64,000 nt of DNA from an uncultured Roseobacter sp. (lineage in GTDB: Bacteria > Pseudomonadota > Alphaproteobacteria > Rhodobacterales > Rhodobacteraceae): the NCBI RefSeq assembly GCF_947493125.1, contig NZ_CANLQB010000001.1, forward strand, positions 310,001 through 374,000, written 5' to 3'. The number at the start of each line of letters is the position of its first letter. The stretch's first letter is position 1. Position numbers and translations under genes: made by a program. Of this stretch, positions 16,378 through 64,000 are shown piece by piece. The notes beneath the pieces were generated by a model, which did not search any database, had not been told where the DNA came from, and worked only from the letters and a program-made list of their open reading frames with translations.

Positions 16378-16462
16378 AAAAAAAAGGCCGAGCACGAAGC
16401 TCGGCCAAGTCCAACAGGGAGGTATGAAGGCAGATGCAGTGCATCCGCTCCTTCATGAGTTC
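16378..16462 (-). ncRNA. Predicted trans-acting small RNA with CCUCCC motif
   Basis: On the minus strand there is a candidate promoter (TTGATC at 16490-16485, 17-bp spacer, TATTTG at 16467-16462). It is followed by a hairpin (arms 16456-16450 and 16430-16424, inner GATGCA/TGCATC), an unpaired ACCTCCCTGTTGG, and a textbook intrinsic terminator (8-bp stem at 16406-16386, then eight T at 16385-16378). The predicted RNA is about 80-85 nt. An exposed CCUCCC, complementary to ribosome-binding sites, is a common targeting motif in alphaproteobacterial small RNAs. The terminator alone could instead end the LysR transcript. Confidence 0.55.
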
Positions 16463-56382: not shown

Positions 56383-59300
56383 ATGAAGATCGAACGGAAA
56401 TTCACCAAGGCCGGGCAGGACGCATACGCTGAGCTCGATTTCGTGACCACCTCCTCCGAAATCCGCAACCCGGACGGCACCGTAGTGTTCCGGCTCGACC
56501 AGGTCGAAGTGCCCGGCTCCTGGAGCCAGGTTGCGAGCGACGTCATCGCCCAGAAGTATTTCCGCAAGGCGGGCGTTCCTTCGAAAACCCGCAAGGTGAA
56601 AGAAAAGGGCGTGCCCGACTTCCTCTGGCGTTCGGTGCCTGTGGAGGGCGCAGACATGGGAGGCGAAACTTCCTCCAAACAGGTGTTTGACCGCTTGGCA
56701 GGCGCCTGGGCCTACTGGGGCTGGAAGGGGGGCTACTTCACCTCCGAAGACGACGCGCGCGCCTATTTCGACGAAATGCGCCACATGCTCGCCTCCCAGC
56801 GTGCCGCCCCCAACAGCCCGCAGTGGTTCAACACCGGCCTGCACTGGGCCTACGGCATCGACGGCCCCGCCCAGGGCCACCACTACGTGGATTACAAAAC
56901 CGGCAAGCTCACGAAATCCAAATCCTCCTACGAGCACCCGCAACCGCACGCCTGTTTCATCCAGTCCGTCGAAGACGATCTGGTGAACGACGGCGGCATC
57001 ATGGACCTCTGGGTCCGCGAGGCGCGGCTCTTCAAATACGGCTCCGGCACCGGTACCAACTTCTCCAGCCTGCGAGCTGCGGGCGAGAGCCTCTCGGGGG
57101 GTGGCCGGTCCTCGGGTCTCATGGGCTTTCTGAAAATCGGCGACCGGGCCGCGGGCGCCATCAAATCAGGCGGGACAACCCGTCGAGCAGCGAAAATGGT
57201 GATCGTCGATGCGGACCATCCCGACATCGAGGATTTCATCAACTGGAAGGTCATCGAAGAGCAGAAAGTGGCGAGCATCGTCGCAGGCTCCAAGATGCAC
57301 GAGCAAAAGCTCAACGGTCTCTTCGAGGCGATCAAGACATGGGATGGGGCGGAGGCCGACGCCTATGATCCCGTCAAGAATGACGCGCTAAAAACAGCGA
57401 TCCGCGCGGCGAAAAAGGTCTCCATCCCAGAGACTTACGTCAAGCGCGTGCTCGACTATGCCAAGCAGGGCCATACGTCCATCGAGTTCCCGACATACGA
57501 CACCGACTGGGATTCCGAAGCCTACAACTCGGTCTCCGGCCAGAACTCGAACAACTCCATCCGGGTGACCAACGCTTTCCTGACGGCCGTCGAAAAGGAC
57601 GCCGATTGGGAGCTGATCAACCGCGTCAATGGCGAAGTCAGCAAGACCGTGAAGGCGCGTGCGCTTTGGGAGCAGATCGGCCACGCCGCCTGGGCCTGTG
57701 CCGATCCCGGCATCCAGTACCACGACACGGTCAACGACTGGCACACTTGCCCCGAAGACGGCGCCATCCGCGGCTCCAACCCCTGCTCGGAGTATATGTT
57801 CCTCGACGATACGGCCTGCAACCTGGCGTCGATGAACCTGCTAACCTTCCTCAAGGACGGCACGTTCCAGGTCGAAGACTACATGCACGCCACGCGCCTC
57901 TGGACCGTGACGCTCGAAATTTCGGTCATGATGGCGCAGTTCCCGTCGAAGGAAATCGCGCAGCGCTCCTACGACTTCCGGACACTGGGTCTGGGCTATG
58001 CCAACATCGGCGGTCTGCTGATGAACATGGGCTACTCCTATGACAGCGACGAGGGCCGCAGCCTCTGCGGGGCGCTGACTGCCATCATGACCGGCGTGAG
58101 CTATGCGACCTCCGCCGAAATGGCGGGCGAGTTGGGGCCCTTCCCGGGCTATGCAAAGAACGCGCCGCACATGCTGCGGGTCATCCGCAACCACCGCACC
58201 GCGGCGAACGGCAAAGTTGGTGGCTACGAAGACCTCTCGGTCACGCCGGTGCCGCTCGATTACAAGAACTGCCCCGATGACCGGCTGATCGAAGTCGCCC
58301 GCGGCGCCTGGGATCAGGCCTTGGAGCTGGGCGAAAAACACGGCTACCGCAACGCGCAAGTCTCGGTGATCGCACCCACCGGCACCATCGGGCTGGTGAT
58401 GGATTGCGACACCACGGGGATCGAGCCGGACTTTGCGCTCGTAAAATTCAAGAAGCTCGCCGGCGGCGGTTACTTCAAGATCATCAACCAGTCGGTGCCG
58501 GCCGCCCTCGAAAAGCTCGGCTACGGCTCGGCACAGATCGAGGAGATCGTCTCCTACGCGGTTGGTCACGGCACCATCGGCAACGCGCCGGGCATCAACC
58601 ACACCTCGCTGGCAGGCCATGGCTTCGGCCCGAACGAGCTGGCCAAGGTGGATGGCGCACTGGCCTCGGCCTTTGACATCCGCTTTGTCTTCAACCAGTG
58701 GACGCTGGGCGAGAACTTCTGCACCCAAGTGCTTGGTATTCCTGCCGAAAAGCTGAATGATCCGACGTTCGATCTGCTCCGGCACCTGGGCTTCTCGAAA
58801 GCGGACATCGACGCGGCGAACGACCATGTCTGCGGGACCATGACGCTCGAAGGCGCGCCCTTCCTCAAGGACGAGCATCTGCCGATCTTCGACTGCGCCA
58901 ACCCCTGCGGCAAGAAGGGCAAGCGCTTCCTGTCGGTCAACAGCCACATCACGATGATGGCGGCAGCGCAGAGCTTCATTTCCGGGGCGATCTCCAAGAC
59001 GATCAACATGCCGAATGATGCGACCATCGAGGACTGCCAGAAGGCCTATGAGCTCAGCTGGTCGCTGGGGGTGAAGGCCAACGCGCTCTACCGCGATGGC
59101 TCGAAACTCTCGCAACCGCTGGCGGCAGCTTTGGTCGAGGATGACGACGACGCGCAGGAGGTTCTGGAGAGCGGGTCGGCCCAGGAAAAAGCCACGGTGC
59201 TCGCCGAAAAGATCGTCGAGAAGGTGATCGTCAAGGAAATCGTCAAATCGCATCGCGAGAAAATGCCGCAACGCCGCAAGGGCTACACGCAAAAGGCCAT

Positions 59301-60036
59301 CGTCGGCGGGCACAAGGTGTATCTGCGCACCGGCGAATATGAAGACGGCAACCTCGGCGAGATTTTCATCGACATGCACAAGGAAGGCGCGGGCTTCCGG
59401 GCGATGATGAACAACTTCGCCATCGCGGTCTCGGTTGGTCTGCAATACGGGGTGCCGCTGGAGGAATTCGTCGACGCCTTCACCTTCACCAAATTCGAGC
59501 CCGCGGGCATGGTGCAGGGCAACGAGACCATCAAGAACGCGACGTCGATCCTCGATTACGTGTTCCGGGAACTCGCCGTCAGCTACCTCGACCGCACCGA
59601 TCTGGCGCATGTTCAGCCCGAGGGCCACACCTTTGACGACCTCGGTCGCGGGGAAGAGGAGGGGGTGAGCAATGTCTCCGAACTCTCCGAGACCGCGGCG
59701 ACCAAGTCCCTGGAAGTGCTGAAGCAAATCAGCTCGACGGGGTACCTGCGCAAGCGCCTGCCGCAGGAACTCGTGGTGCTGCAGGGCGGCGCCCAGGGTT
59801 TCGCGGATGAGGCGGTCGCCTTCGACGGGCTCGCCCCGGTTTCCGAAGGCAGCGTGGCGGTCGCCATGGCCACCACGGCGGTCAGCACCGGCACGGTCGA
59901 GATGGACGCGCGCACCAAGGCCAAGATGCAGGGCTACGAGGGCGAAGCCTGCGGCGAATGCGGCAACTACACACTGGTGCGCAACGGCACTTGCATGAAG
60001 TGCAACACCTGCGGCGGAACGTCTGGGTGTAGCTGA
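56383..60036 (+). CDS. nrdJ: Vitamin B12-dependent ribonucleotide reductase, class II
   Basis: NrdJ reduces ribonucleotides to deoxyribonucleotides with adenosylcobalamin and works with or without oxygen. At 1217 residues it is the long monomer-type form. Active-site segments are [42 protein letters not shown] (catalytic Cys/Glu region), [16 protein letters not shown] and [10 protein letters not shown]. The carboxy-terminal end is a cysteine-rich zinc-like tail (CGECGN, then CMKCNTCGG). No intein or intron interrupts it. The GIY-YIG gene begins 11 bp downstream. Confidence 0.96.
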
Positions 60037-60047
60037 GGAGAGTGCTG

Positions 60048-60446
60048 ATGATACTGAGAAATACAAACGCACTATCCGAGAATTACGGAAAGTGCACGTG
60101 GACAAACTCAGCGGGTAGACAGTTTGTGTTCTCGGAGTATCCGATAGACTACAAGCCGGAGGGCGATCGTGACATCTACCTCTTTTGCGCTTGCGGGATT
60201 TTCGGCTACAGCCCGATCTACATAGGCAAGGCAACCGACTTGAACAACCGTCTGAGCGGTCATGAGCGCCGTGGCGAAGCCAAGAGACATGGCGCTACGA
60301 CGCTGCTCGTCTACTCTCCACGAGGCCTGCTGGCTGAACTGCTAGAAGACACCGAAAAGCAATTGATCCAAGAGTTTCGCCCGCCGCTTAACACCCAGCA
60401 CGCCATGGGTGGGATCTTTGGGACGAACGCGTTGGGTTGCTATTGA
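60048..60446 (+). CDS. Free-standing GIY-YIG nuclease
   Basis: This 132-residue protein consists almost only of a GIY-YIG domain: DIYLFCACG near residue 42-50, PIYIGKATDLNNRLSGH with YIG at 58-60 and Arg68, and the catalytic Glu103 in EDTEKQLIQEFRPPLN with Asn115. The ATG at 60048 has a GAGGAG ribosome site 7 bp upstream; a GTG at 60042 is less likely. It is co-transcribed with nrdJ. Base composition is visibly less GC-rich than nrdJ, which suggests transfer. It could be a repair-type nuclease or the relic of a homing endonuclease. Confidence 0.82.
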   Translation: MILRNTNALSENYGKCTWTNSAGRQFVFSEYPIDYKPEGDRDIYLFCACGIFGYSPIYIGKATDLNNRLSGHERRGEAKRHGATTLLVYSPRGLLAELLEDTEKQLIQEFRPPLNTQHAMGGIFGTNALGCY

Positions 60447-60448
60447 AA

Positions 60449-60834
60449 ACGCGTCCCTGGGGGACGTGTAGGGGTCGCGGTTCTGCCTGCGGGCAGGCCG
60501 CACCCCGACGAACACCGGGAGCGGGCGGCGATGCGGTTGCTCTTGGGACAATCGGAGCCGGACTCCGCAGAAAACGAAGTCGTTTTCAGCTCTGTCCGGT
60601 GACGCAGGAAACCTCGCGGTTTCCCACTGAATTAGAGCGGGGCAGGGTGGGACCTTGGCCTCTCTGATACCAGCCGGGCGGGAGTCCGCAGGTTTTCTTC
60701 GAAAACCCACTCTCTCCCGCTCGGTGAGACATCGAAAGATGTCTCACCGGACAAGGGGCGGGTGCGCTCGCCCCCGACGACGTTCAGGCCGCAGGCAGAA
60801 CAATACCGAGCGGTTAACATATTGAGCCTGAACG
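60449..60834 (+). ncRNA. Multi-hairpin non-coding region downstream of the GIY-YIG gene
   Basis: At least seven inverted repeats follow one another: 60449-60469, 60471-60506, 60558-60599, 60607-60624, 60678-60720, 60722-60749 (12 bp perfect with a GAAA loop) and 60781-60834 (9-bp closing stem). Two of them, at 60558 and 60678, share one design: an outer stem, an internal loop TCCGCA opposite AGCTCT or CACTCT, and an inner hairpin. The stems differ completely in sequence while the loop is kept. No reading frame runs through. A strong terminator ends the unit at 60872. It is probably transcribed with nrdJ as a structured 3' region or as a separate RNA. Confidence 0.5.
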
Positions 60835-60846
60835 GCGACACTCAAA

Positions 60847-60872
60847 GGGGCCTCCGCGGCCCCTTTTTTTTT
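60847..60872 (+). terminator. Intrinsic terminator of the nrdJ transcript
   Basis: The perfect stem GGGGCC/GGCCCC (60847-60852, 60858-60863) with loop TCCGC is followed directly by nine T (60864-60872). It is the clearest rho-independent terminator on the + strand in the window and closes the nrdJ, GIY-YIG and hairpin-array unit. Confidence 0.92.
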
Positions 60873-61036
60873 GCCCGTCAAGCGCGAGCGGCGCGGTGTC
60901 CAACGAACTCGCCCTGACGGGTCGGCGGAAGCCGAGATCGGTCTTTCTGGACAGAAATGTCAGACGCATGCGGGCCATCCTGCCGCTGGGTCTCGGGGCG
61001 TCTCGTTTCGAGATTTCACCCATACGCCGAACACTC

Positions 61037-61468
61037 ACGATCAAGAAGAGCATACTTGCACCGGGTCTGGCCACCGCCGTCGCCCTGACCTCTCAAGCCG
61101 CGCGGCGGGCAATCAACTGGCCCTTGCGATCAGTGGATACGACACCCGGTCCGATCATGACGGCACGCCGCTTCAGGGCGACAGCGGTTCAACCATTTCT
61201 GCAACGGCGCCATCTGGTATTTCAGCACCGAAGAAAACCGCGACAAAGTCGCCGCTGACCCCGCGGCCTTTGCTCCGGACTATGACGGCGCTGTTCCTGC
61301 GCGGCGAGCCAGGGCGACACGGCGCCGGGCGCCCCTGCGGGCTGGCAGGGTGTGGACGGTACGCTCTACGTCCAGGTCCCCCCGCGCGCGCAGACGCTGT
61401 GGCAGCAGGACATCCCCACCTACATCGCCTCACGCGACGAGAACCGGCCGCGCCTCCGCCCGTTCTGA
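61037..61468 (+). pseudogene. Decayed YHS-domain protein gene
   Basis: Four pieces of one protein lie in order in shifting frames. They are a signal peptide (TIKKSILAPGLATAVALTSQ, its first codon ACG where an ATG would be expected), then LALAISGYD with DGTPLQGDS, then CNGAIWYFSTEENRDKVAAD with PAAFAPDYDGA, and finally TAPGAPAGWQGVDGTLYVQV up to DIPTYIASRDENRPRLRPF and a stop at 61466. Three frameshifts are needed. The order and motifs are those of secreted YHS-domain proteins. The gene is clearly inactivated unless the sequence has errors. Confidence 0.75.
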
Positions 61469-61508
61469 AACACGAAGAGGCGAGGGGCGATACCGCTCCC
61501 CGCACCCC

Positions 61509-62021
61509 CTAAAGCAGTTCGGAGACATCGGACTTGCCCTCCAGGCCCATCTCCGTGCGCAGCCGCGCCCGCGCCCGTGCCAGCCGCGACATCACGGTGC
61601 CCGGCGGCACATTGGTCAGAACCGCCAGCGTCGCCGGGCTGGTCTCCCCCTCCATCACCAGCCGCATCAGATCGGCCTGGGCATCCGGCAACCGCTCGAT
61701 GGCCGCGGCCAGATCGGCGCAGGCCATGCGCGCCGGTGCCGTCGGGGGCACCGCCGCACTCTCCTCCTCCAGCGGGTCCGTCGGACGGTCGGACCGCCAC
61801 CGCTGGCGCGCCAGATTGCGCAGGATCGTCATCGCATAGCGGTCGATATCTTCGACCTCGACCCCCTTGCGCAAGGCCGCCCAGAGCTTCAGCGCCGTCT
61901 CCTGGGCGAGGTCGTCGGCATCGCAAGCACTGTCGCTCAGCCGCCGGGCCCGCGCGGCCAACCGCGGCAGCAAGGCGTCCAGATCGTCGGGTATGTCGGG
62001 TATATCGTGTATCGAAGACAT
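61509..62021 (-). CDS. ECF-type RNA polymerase sigma factor
   Basis: The 170-residue protein has sigma region 2 (CDADDLAQETALKLWAALRK, DRYAMTILRNLARQRWR) and region 4 (RLPDAQADLMRLVMEGETSP, NVPPGTVMSRLARARARLR), with no region 1 or 3, so it is an ECF sigma factor. No anti-sigma gene is adjacent. An EF-hand gene is divergent, 263 bp away, and could be its target or partner; that is inference. Confidence 0.9.
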   Translation of the reverse strand: MSSIHDIPDIPDDLDALLPRLAARARRLSDSACDADDLAQETALKLWAALRKGVEVEDIDRYAMTILRNLARQRWRSDRPTDPLEEESAAVPPTAPARMACADLAAAIERLPDAQADLMRLVMEGETSPATLAVLTNVPPGTVMSRLARARARLRTEMGLEGKSDVSELL

Positions 62022-62284
62022 CTCAGCCTCCTTTCCATGAGAACCGTGACCAGCATCGCAGGTCTATATGGGGGCGCCAGACGGGGGCTTTTTGCCGATT
62101 GGCCTGCGTCGGCCTTTTTCGGCGAGCAGCCGCCACCGGCCCATGTCCCAATCGGCGGGGATTGGCGCGATTGGCCCGTGCTGCGCTGCAACAGGGACGA
62201 AAGCGGGCTTTGGTGCATCTACCCTTGTGAGGCGCAGAGCAGCGCCTTGGACACTTACGTTCAAACTTAAATGGGAGTACCCAA
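62022..62284. other. Divergent gap between sigma factor and EF-hand gene
   Basis: The 263-bp gap should contain both promoters. An open frame on the + strand (62038-62270) would encode a 77-residue product but has no ribosome site and starts in the ribosome site of the sigma gene on the other strand. I see no confident -35/-10 pair. GGGAGT at 62272-62277 is the ribosome site of the EF-hand gene. Confidence 0.35.
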
Positions 62285-62521
62285 ATGAAACTGATCACCA
62301 AAACCACAGTCGCAGCCATTGCCCTGATGTCCGCTTCGGCGGCCTTCGCTCAACTGGCAGCGGATGCGAATGGCGATGGCGTTCTGACAATCGATGAGGT
62401 TCAGGCAGCATACCCGGACATCACCGCCGAGTCCTTCAGCACGATGGACCTGAACGCGGACGGCGCGCTGGATGAAGCCGAAGTGCAATCCGCACAGGAA
62501 GCTGGCCTGATGCCGGCCTAA
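62285..62521 (+). CDS. Secreted EF-hand calcium-binding protein
   Basis: The 78-residue protein has a signal peptide (about residues 1-22, ending ASAAFAQ) and two EF-hand loops, DANGDGVLTIDE (27-38) and DLNADGALDEAE (55-66), each with the five expected oxygen ligands and the final Glu. It probably binds calcium in the periplasm. It is followed by its own terminator. Confidence 0.85.
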   Translation: MKLITKTTVAAIALMSASAAFAQLAADANGDGVLTIDEVQAAYPDITAESFSTMDLNADGALDEAEVQSAQEAGLMPA

Positions 62522-62633: not shown

Positions 62634-64000
62634 TTACGCCGGCAGATGAATCCTGAACCGGGCCCGGATCGCGGCATCAGTTGCGGGGTCAAGCCGCGCC
62701 GCCGCCCGCTGCCCGAGGATTTCATGTTTGCGCGCTGTGGCCTTCGCCACCAGGTCGGGCTTGCCCCGTTCGTCCCACTCCTTGGGCGAGGTCCGGTCCC
62801 CGAACGCCGGATAGACGTGGTCTTGCTGCATGCGCCCCAGCGTCTGCTCGGTGCCCAGATAGTGCCCGGGGCCCCCCAGACACACCTCGCGGATCTGGTC
62901 GACCGCCAGCGTCTCTTCCGTCACCTCGATGCCGCGCACGCAACGCAGCGCCTGGCCGATGAGATCGTCGCCCAGGATCAGCGACTCGTGACAAAACCCC
63001 AGAAGCGAGGCATGCATGCCCGCCGCCTCATAGACCATGTTGAGCCCCGCAAGCCCCGCCATCACGTTGGAGCACATCTGCTCCCAGCCCGCCTGCATGT
63101 CGGGCAGCTTTGCATCCGCAATGCCTGCAGCGGCCCCACCGGGCAGGTCGTAGTATTTGTGCATCTGCGCGCAGCCCGCCGTCAGCAAGGCCTGCTCGCC
63201 CGACCCGCCCGTCATGGCGCCCGTCCGCAGGTCCAACCCGAAGGGCCAGGTGCCGAACACCGCCGGATGCCCGGGCTGCACGGCGTTGACATAGACCAGC
63301 CCGGCGAGGCACTCCGCCACCGCCTGCACGATGGCTCCGGCGACCGTGGAGGGGGCCGTCGCGCCCGCCATGCCCGCCGAGAGCAGCAGCACCGGCATCC
63401 CGCCGCAGATACAGGCCTCCATCACCTCGCAGGATTCCGTGGCGAATTTCATCGGCGGGACGACAAAGCAATTGGTGTTGCTGACAAAGGGCCGCGCGCG
63501 CCAGGCCTGTTCACCTCCCGCGATCATGTGCAAAAGCTCCAGCCCCTGCGCGACAAAGCTCGGATCGGTGAAGGAGGTGCCGATATGCTTGGTGGTGCCC
63601 GCGCAGCAGGCGTAGATGGAGTTGAGATCCATCTCCAGATTGTCAGCGATGTCACGGCACACCATCGGGCGCTGCAGGAAGTGGATGTTGTCGAGCGTGT
63701 CGGCAATCCGCGCGGCGTCATGCAGGTCCTGCACGCCGCATTCGCGATAGCTGCGCCCGTCCACCTCGACCAGATGCACGGCGGCCCCGGCGGTGCCATA
63801 GTGCACCCGCGCTCCGGAGAGCTCCATATCATGCGCCGGGTCGCGCCCCATCAGGGTGACGGTGCGGTTGGCGCGGGCGATGGTGTCCTCCACCAGGGCC
63901 CGGGGAAAGCGGATGCGTCCGTCTTCGCCCCGGACGGCCCCCGCGCCGGTCAGATACGCGATGCCGGAGGCCGGGGCATCGGCCAGGCCGATCTCCTCCA
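62634..64000 (-). CDS. Trimethylamine methyltransferase (MttB) family protein, partial
   Basis: The gene runs off the right edge; the frame stays open to base 64000, where it reads EEIGLADAPASGIAYLTGAG and then GEDGRIRFPRALVEDTIARA. MttB enzymes move methyl groups from methylamines or betaines to a corrinoid protein. Family segments visible include MVCRDIADNLEMDLNSIYAC, CICGGMPVLLLSAGMAGATA and GLAGLNMVYEAAGMHASLLG. No in-frame stop is seen, so this is a non-pyrrolysine homologue, probably acting on a quaternary amine. The corrinoid partner gene is outside the window. Confidence 0.85.
   Translation of the reverse strand, partial: EEIGLADAPASGIAYLTGAGAVRGEDGRIRFPRALVEDTIARANRTVTLMGRDPAHDMELSGARVHYGTAGAAVHLVEVDGRSYRECGVQDLHDAARIADTLDNIHFLQRPMVCRDIADNLEMDLNSIYACCAGTTKHIGTSFTDPSFVAQGLELLHMIAGGEQAWRARPFVSNTNCFVVPPMKFATESCEVMEACICGGMPVLLLSAGMAGATAPSTVAGAIVQAVAECLAGLVYVNAVQPGHPAVFGTWPFGLDLRTGAMTGGSGEQALLTAGCAQMHKYYDLPGGAAAGIADAKLPDMQAGWEQMCSNVMAGLAGLNMVYEAAGMHASLLGFCHESLILGDDLIGQALRCVRGIEVTEETLAVDQIREVCLGGPGHYLGTEQTLGRMQQDHVYPAFGDRTSPKEWDERGKPDLVAKATARKHEILGQRAAARLDPATDAAIRARFRIHLPA

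Follow-up and report, generated by a model that had tools for sequence, protein, structure and literature searches.

We consider it likely that the 3′ untranslated region of nrdJ is the site of a Rhodobacteraceae RNA that is not catalogued in Rfam, carries optional hairpin modules and probably exists as a stable RNA ending at its own terminator. The conserved core of this RNA corresponds to the last ~120 nt of a hairpin array and is made up of a hairpin, P1, a long stem, P2, whose internal segment is invariant, and finally an intrinsic terminator; our data show its conservation, its position behind nrdJ, its structure and strand, and the terminator. We infer that the RNA is transcribed, that it may be released or processed, and that it would have a function of its own. 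The nrdJ gene supplies DNA precursors via a B12-dependent enzyme, and a structured RNA that adjoins it on the 3′ side in roughly four fifths of the family's sampled species is a candidate for post-transcriptional control that lies outside Rfam. A second unexplained pattern is a double hairpin found at the ends of unrelated genes, a long stem of which contains the stop codon.

The array occupies positions 60449-60872 of the window, the whole stretch of 64,000 nucleotides of Roseobacter DNA that was analysed. Its parts and the two upstream genes, all on the plus strand, are the following.

56383..60036 (+), nrdJ, vitamin B12-dependent (class II) ribonucleotide reductase, host gene of the RNA (NCBIfam NF005736, 2217.9 bits; Pfam PF08471/PF02867)
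60042..60446 (+), GIY-YIG-like ORF of 134 aa, a variable insert between nrdJ and the RNA (Pfam PF20815, 24.2 bits, cut-off 22.4)
60449..60469 (+), hairpin H1, start of the RNA (fold)
60471..60506 (+), hairpin H2 (GGGGU...ACCCC), then a GACGAA linker (fold)
60515..60546 (+), variable hairpin (fold)
60558..60599 (+), hairpin A copy 1, internal loop UCCGCA / AGCUCU (fold; match to covariance model R3 at G000:C1:370556-370602, this copy being in the model)
60607..60624 (+), hairpin B copy 1, perfect, after A (fold)
60627..60673 (+), hairpin with GGGCAGGGUGGGACCUUGGCCUCUC (fold)
60674..60724 (+), hairpin A copy 2, internal loop UCCGCA / CACUCU (fold; R3 match at G000:C1:370677-370722, this copy likewise in the model)
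60722..60749 (+), hairpin B copy 2, 12 bp, perfect, 4-nt loop (fold)
60755..60774 (+), core hairpin P1 with invariant UGCG loop (alignment A1, pair counts)
60778..60837 (+), long core stem P2 around the invariant segment CGCAGGC, and a possible short helix P3 (alignment, pair counts)
60844..60872 (+), intrinsic terminator and T run, with a stem that covaries in relatives (terminator call, pair counts)

An earlier note on this DNA had described a chain of hairpins of ~420 bp at this place, and the chain is real: 60449-60872 folds with −221.9 kcal/mol compared to −174.3 ± 6.4 kcal/mol for 100 dinucleotide shuffles (z −7.49), none of which reached as low a value. The strong intrinsic terminator that was thought to end the array is confirmed at 60844-60866, followed by the T run. 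The array had been placed downstream of a nuclease gene, which holds in a literal sense, but the array forms the 3′ region of nrdJ, with the nuclease ORF as an insert between the two rather than the host gene. That no named RNA family has this layout agrees with our search of Rfam 15, where no family attains its gathering score in 60449-60872 and the nine matches at E ≤ 10 are all far below theirs (the best has 22 bits against 39). OLE, ROOL, GOLLD and HEARO are large bacterial non-coding RNAs with many hairpins and an uncertain function. The array is similarly long and rich in hairpins, but differs from them in lacking a match at gathering score and in having a core of only ~120 nt.

The core was aligned in 47 sequences (alignment A1), from 19 congeners and the 28 best-scoring loci of the family. 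These cores are 112-122 nt long and 97.3% of the alignment cells are paired, with changes on both sides in 14 of 29 pairs (4 in P1, 3 in P2, 7 in the terminator) compared to 6.4 ± 1.4 in shuffles. G-U pairs clearly exceed A-C oppositions, 60:1 in P1, 12:0 in P2 and 33:7 in the terminator; 45 of the 60 G-U pairs in P1 come from one column where G-U is the rule, and the pooled ratio for P1 and P2 is accordingly 72:1 with this column and 27:1 without it. This excess identifies the nrdJ strand as the functional one, acting as RNA. Within the core, 38 of the 129 alignment columns are invariant, among them those of CGCAGGC and of the UGCG loop. No variation is seen in the CGCAGGC segment or in the P3 pairs, and pairing there is therefore neither supported nor refuted. 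A protein-coding region was rejected both on the reading frame and on the length of the cores. The conserved frame that the earlier note had named as counter-evidence is not present, since none of the frames stays open through the first 90 nt of every one of the 47 cores; the best ones are open in 37 and 39 of them on the minus strand and in 30 on the plus strand.

The invariant columns also bear on a possible, though less probable, interpretation in which the 3′ end acts purely in cis, the hairpin chain and the terminator serving to end nrdJ transcription and to shield the mRNA from 3′ exonucleases, with nothing being released or acting in trans. The nearly constant location 3′ of nrdJ, the terminator and the freely varying number and sequence of the hairpins would all suit such a role; a shield, however, needs no invariant sequence, which the core does have.

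The array upstream of the core is not a fixed design and varies between lineages, because five of the 28 family loci (L043, L057, L058, L065 and L066) contain a minimal form made of core and terminator alone, with the core located 6-17 nt past the aligned nrdJ end. In all 28 loci the RNA is on the nrdJ strand, 6-712 nt past this end, and what they retain of it is the final ~120 nt. One locus has a second, partial copy of the core (L015:1787-1842, 84% over 56 nt) that starts ~84 nt after the first core and terminator.

In the reading that we favour, the RNA would be transcribed together with nrdJ through to its own terminator, and individual lineages would each have added a variable chain of hairpins upstream of the core, including H1, H2, GGGUGGGG hairpins and A-B pairs. 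Chain and core would persist as a stable 3′-end RNA that might either stay on the nrdJ mRNA as a protection or be cut free by RNase E-type processing, as known for Rhodobacter 3′-UTR sRNAs, and act as a small RNA, in which case the invariant P2 segment of the released RNA might contact a protein or a target RNA. The A-B pairs would be copies of a separate, dispersed gene-end module, present in the nrdJ RNA of some lineages only and non-essential to it.

Matches to the array DNA were found in all 19 genomes of the genus, its own included, at E ≤ 1 and in 187 of 295 family genomes at E ≤ 0.01, many of the latter being weak or partial. A covariance model of the core (R1) has matches in 96 of 121 sampled species of the order, all those listed being Rhodobacteraceae, while nrdJ (PF08471) is present in 120 of the same 121 species. 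Ninety-seven of the 99 R1 matches (95 of the 96 genomes) lie on the nrdJ strand, 3.2-4.3 kb past the N-terminal domain of nrdJ, and two are far from the gene. Under the strict filters used, 25 species have no match and 24 of these possess nrdJ, so that either nrdJ does not need the RNA or the RNA has become too divergent to be detected. In a class-wide sample, again with strict filters, R1 matched 8 of 289 genomes: four are family members, and the other four matches are weak (29-35 bits) and have no nrdJ alignment alongside.

This tight linkage has to be weighed against the idea of an independent gene for a trans-acting sRNA, which would have its own promoter inside the end of nrdJ and merely be its neighbour. 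The RNA does have a terminator of its own, and one of the two distant R1 matches is 115 kb away from nrdJ. In addition, conservation at fourfold sites near the nrdJ end is 0.85 (8 sites) compared to 0.40-0.74 in six upstream 20-codon windows (1-5 sites each), a difference that would be compatible with a promoter inside nrdJ; the raised third-position conservation could alternatively result from codon usage in the conserved cysteine-rich tail of the protein. We nevertheless find an independent gene unlikely: a scan for sigma-70-like promoters, the one type covered, gave no site in 59000-62500, and the association with nrdJ seen in nearly all R1 matches is kept within the genus even where ORFs have been inserted between the two.

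The gap between nrdJ and the RNA is a slot for differing single small ORFs. All 19 congeneric loci that were read contain nrdJ, and in seven of them the RNA starts 6-7 nt past the nrdJ stop codon, counted from its first base. In seven others (L012-L015, L017, L018 and L027) another ORF of at least 50 aa occupies the slot, with its end 2-83 nt upstream of the RNA; these ORFs were called mechanically, and of the six checked by Pfam one is above the cut-off (DUF3892, in L017). The slot ORF of L018 has a beta-helix match under the cut-off, and inspection by eye suggested ImmA-like ORFs in L044 and L045 and a DUF2188-like one in L042. The motif used did not locate the RNA start in L020 and L021 (where the sequence of the latter reads N); L022 has a single ORF, which overlaps the RNA start. 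Relatives of the GIY-YIG ORF of the window, which scores 20.2 bits against PF01541, under the cut-off of 22.6, were detected by tblastn in just three of the 19 loci including its own. For this reason we rejected a nuclease-associated RNA: the RNA is present in 19 of 19 loci, and the fixed pairing of nuclease and RNA that characterizes the HEARO/IscB type is not seen. No relative of the ORF was confirmed in viral contigs, and a plasmid origin was rejected for the array, which has no similar DNA in the plasmid collection.

The location 3′ of a coding gene, on the same strand and with an intrinsic terminator, is that of 3′-UTR-derived sRNAs. SorX, UdsB, UdsC, UdsD and UdsH of Rhodobacter sphaeroides, a member of the same family, are likewise encoded 3′ of coding genes, and several of the R. 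sphaeroides 3′-UTR sRNAs are reported to arise by RNase E cleavage, with terminators at their 3′ ends (PMC8625941, PMC6238624). They appear to be the closest experimental parallels of the nrdJ RNA. The host genes of SorX, UdsB and UdsC are different, however (ompR-1; RSP_1771, annotated as a citrate lyase subunit; RSP_7527), the main texts of both papers do not contain the word nrdJ, and none of the RNAs was found described there as a variable hairpin array (PMC8625941, PMC6238624). Neither "ribonucleo" nor "nrd" occurs in the main text of the sRNA list of Paracoccus denitrificans (PMC5107571), and neither "ribonucleo" nor nrdJ in that of Ruegeria pomeroyi (PMC4809877); positions and names in both could not be mapped, and a match in either list is possible. 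Our literature search, of partial coverage and thus no proof of absence from print, listed no paper whose title concerns an RNA 3′ of nrdJ or the hairpin module. Elsewhere in the window, SorX, a known 3′-UTR sRNA of Rhodobacter, has an Rfam match at 16380-16461 (−) with 58.8 bits, and PYLIS_3 has one at 63023-63122 (−), inside a trimethylamine methyltransferase-like ORF (NCBIfam 309.5 bits with a cut-off of 525).

The two hairpins with a shared internal loop that the earlier note had singled out are both present as described, and they belong to one class, hairpin A, in which the internal loop is constant and the stems vary yet stay paired. Copy 1 reads CCGGAC TCCGCA ... AGCTCT GTCCGG (60558-60599), and in copy 2 (60674-60724) the loop segments are TCCGCA at 60685-60690 and CACTCT at 60708-60713. 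The statement that every stem base pair differs proved too strong: the stems do vary, but the pairs adjoining the loop (GAC/GTC, G-C and C-G) are almost constant across copies. A loop pattern demanding no stem, GACTCCGC-N9..38-CTCTGTC, has 22 matches in the 19 genus genomes compared to 8 for the reversed control, and an inner stem of at least 5 pairs is found in 21 of the 22 (17 of 18 distinct ones) where 2.6 are expected from shuffled interiors. A shorter loop pattern gave no excess in the genome of the window (6 matches, 7 in the control). By a geometric scan, 21 distinct A hairpins were recovered in 74 loci, 27 of which had been fetched by such patterns, and none when the same loci were read backwards. 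In an alignment of 23 A copies (A2), the stems are paired in 97.5% of cells (70.7% in shuffles), and both partners have changed in 8 of 12 pairs (6.3 ± 0.6 in shuffles); the unselected count given above is the fairer measure because most A2 copies were picked by a scan that demanded paired stems. Compensatory changes in relatives, which the earlier note had suggested looking for, are thus found both in the core and in the shared-loop hairpins, and they support its view that structure is under selection.

A search of family genomes with a covariance model of these hairpins, as had been proposed, was done with R3. At E ≤ 0.1 it matches 15 of 19 genus genomes, a count that is in part built in, since most of its training copies came from this genus; with stricter filters it matches 19 of 248 family genomes. 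In the stem parse, which read 34 of 56 copies, a perfect hairpin B of at least 8 uninterrupted pairs occurs downstream of A in 22 copies and upstream in 4. Among 39 distinct copies (55 were taken, less 14 unparsed and 2 duplicates) the ratio of G-U to A-C is 8:7, with 4:4 in nrdJ RNAs and 4:3 elsewhere. Unlike the core, hairpin A therefore has no wobble bias, and selection on either strand or on the DNA is possible. The copies in nrdJ RNAs have the sense of nrdJ wherever the strand can be compared, opposite to most dispersed copies; they may share one founding event, which makes their common orientation weak evidence.

Copies of A are also present at other genes, among them dnaX, rpsO, rplP, glnA, ybaB and ABC permeases, mostly reversed with respect to the gene. 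In 22 of 27 elements outside the nrdJ loci, the gene that follows the A-B pair on its right lies on the opposite strand, so the mRNAs of these genes would read B′ and then A′. Of 21 elements with such a gene within 260 nt, 13 have its stop codon inside B, always with at least 9 pairs (9-17). As a control, 196 other gene stops in the fetched loci were examined in windows anchored on the stop rather than on A; the stop lies within the best hairpin in 45 cases, 16 of them with at least 9 pairs. The counts of 22 and 13 include orthologous sites, the latter representing ~8 distinct genes, and the stop-codon count considered 24 elements, three of which have no gene in reach, with L151, L152, L163 and L164 left out. 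Genes around the dispersed hairpins were called by a GC3-based ORF heuristic; Pfam identified ten of the proteins, and the gene at L161 is without identification. A stop codon in a hairpin followed by A′ in the sense of the gene is seen at L140, L121, L130, L134, L138, L143, L147, L154, L161, L162, L165, L166 and L003, in each case at the element close to the centre of the locus.

REP/BIME elements are intergenic imperfect palindromes that occur in pairs, often 3′ of genes, and the A-B pairs resemble them in all these respects. One might suspect that the A-B hairpins are REP-like mobile palindromes spread by a transposase and that the array is partly a pile-up of insertions. The same class of hairpin is indeed present elsewhere in the genome, its wobble pairs show no strand preference, and at the glnA site B is missing from the congeners G001 and G007, where a shorter A-like hairpin is all that is present. 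We had nonetheless come to disfavour this explanation and hold it to be very improbable. REP elements have many near-identical copies, but R3 has only 8 matches at E ≤ 0.1 in the genome of the window, with different stems (at E ≤ 0.001 there are 6 A copies, two of these in the nrdJ RNA), and at many sites the stop codon lies in the second hairpin of the pair. The Y1 (RAYT) transposase associated with REP elements (PF01797) is absent from this genome (G000) despite its six A copies, and also from G007, G008 and G011; it is present in 4 of 19 congeners (G001, G003, G005 and G018), and G001 has several A copies. At one permease site the stems differ across three genera and are still paired, with loop and layout persisting, unlike what fresh copies would look like. 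Finally, the core is no repeat.

A bolder idea, to which we give very little credence, is that the nrdJ RNA might be a trans-acting regulator whose A hairpins carry the reverse complement of the gene-end module on other mRNAs and pair with A′. The module in these mRNAs would consist of the stop-codon hairpin B′ followed by A′ with its AGAGCG / UGCGGA loop, and the A loop segments GACUCCGCA and CGCUCUGUC could pair, over 9 nt each, with UGCGGAGUC and GACAGAGCG of A′, close to where the genes dnaX, rpsO, rplP, glnA and those of transporters have their stop codons. Such pairing would account for a constant A loop with drifting stems, and would tie dNTP synthesis to replication and translation genes.

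A further suggestion of the earlier note was that the array might refold, given an exact complement between 60594-60602 and 60744-60752. The complement is exact and in fact extends to 10 nt (60593-60602 / 60744-60753); refolding is not supported. Long-range complements of at least 10 nt arise in 17 of 200 shuffles, and this one is missing in the sole other congener with two such hairpins. The window also has a 13-nt complement (60480-60492 / 60789-60801), a length attained in none of the 200 shuffles, but the corresponding complement is 0-8 nt in the other 16 congeners examined, and refolding by long-range pairing was rejected as non-conserved even though this complement exceeds all shuffles.

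One minor observation concerns two loci (L151 and L152, at ~1500-1600) in which an A-B pair is situated directly upstream of a cobH-like gene for precorrin-8X methylmutase (Pfam, on L151). There hairpin B adjoins the start codon, a link to B12 synthesis for a module that also occurs beside the B12-dependent nrdJ.
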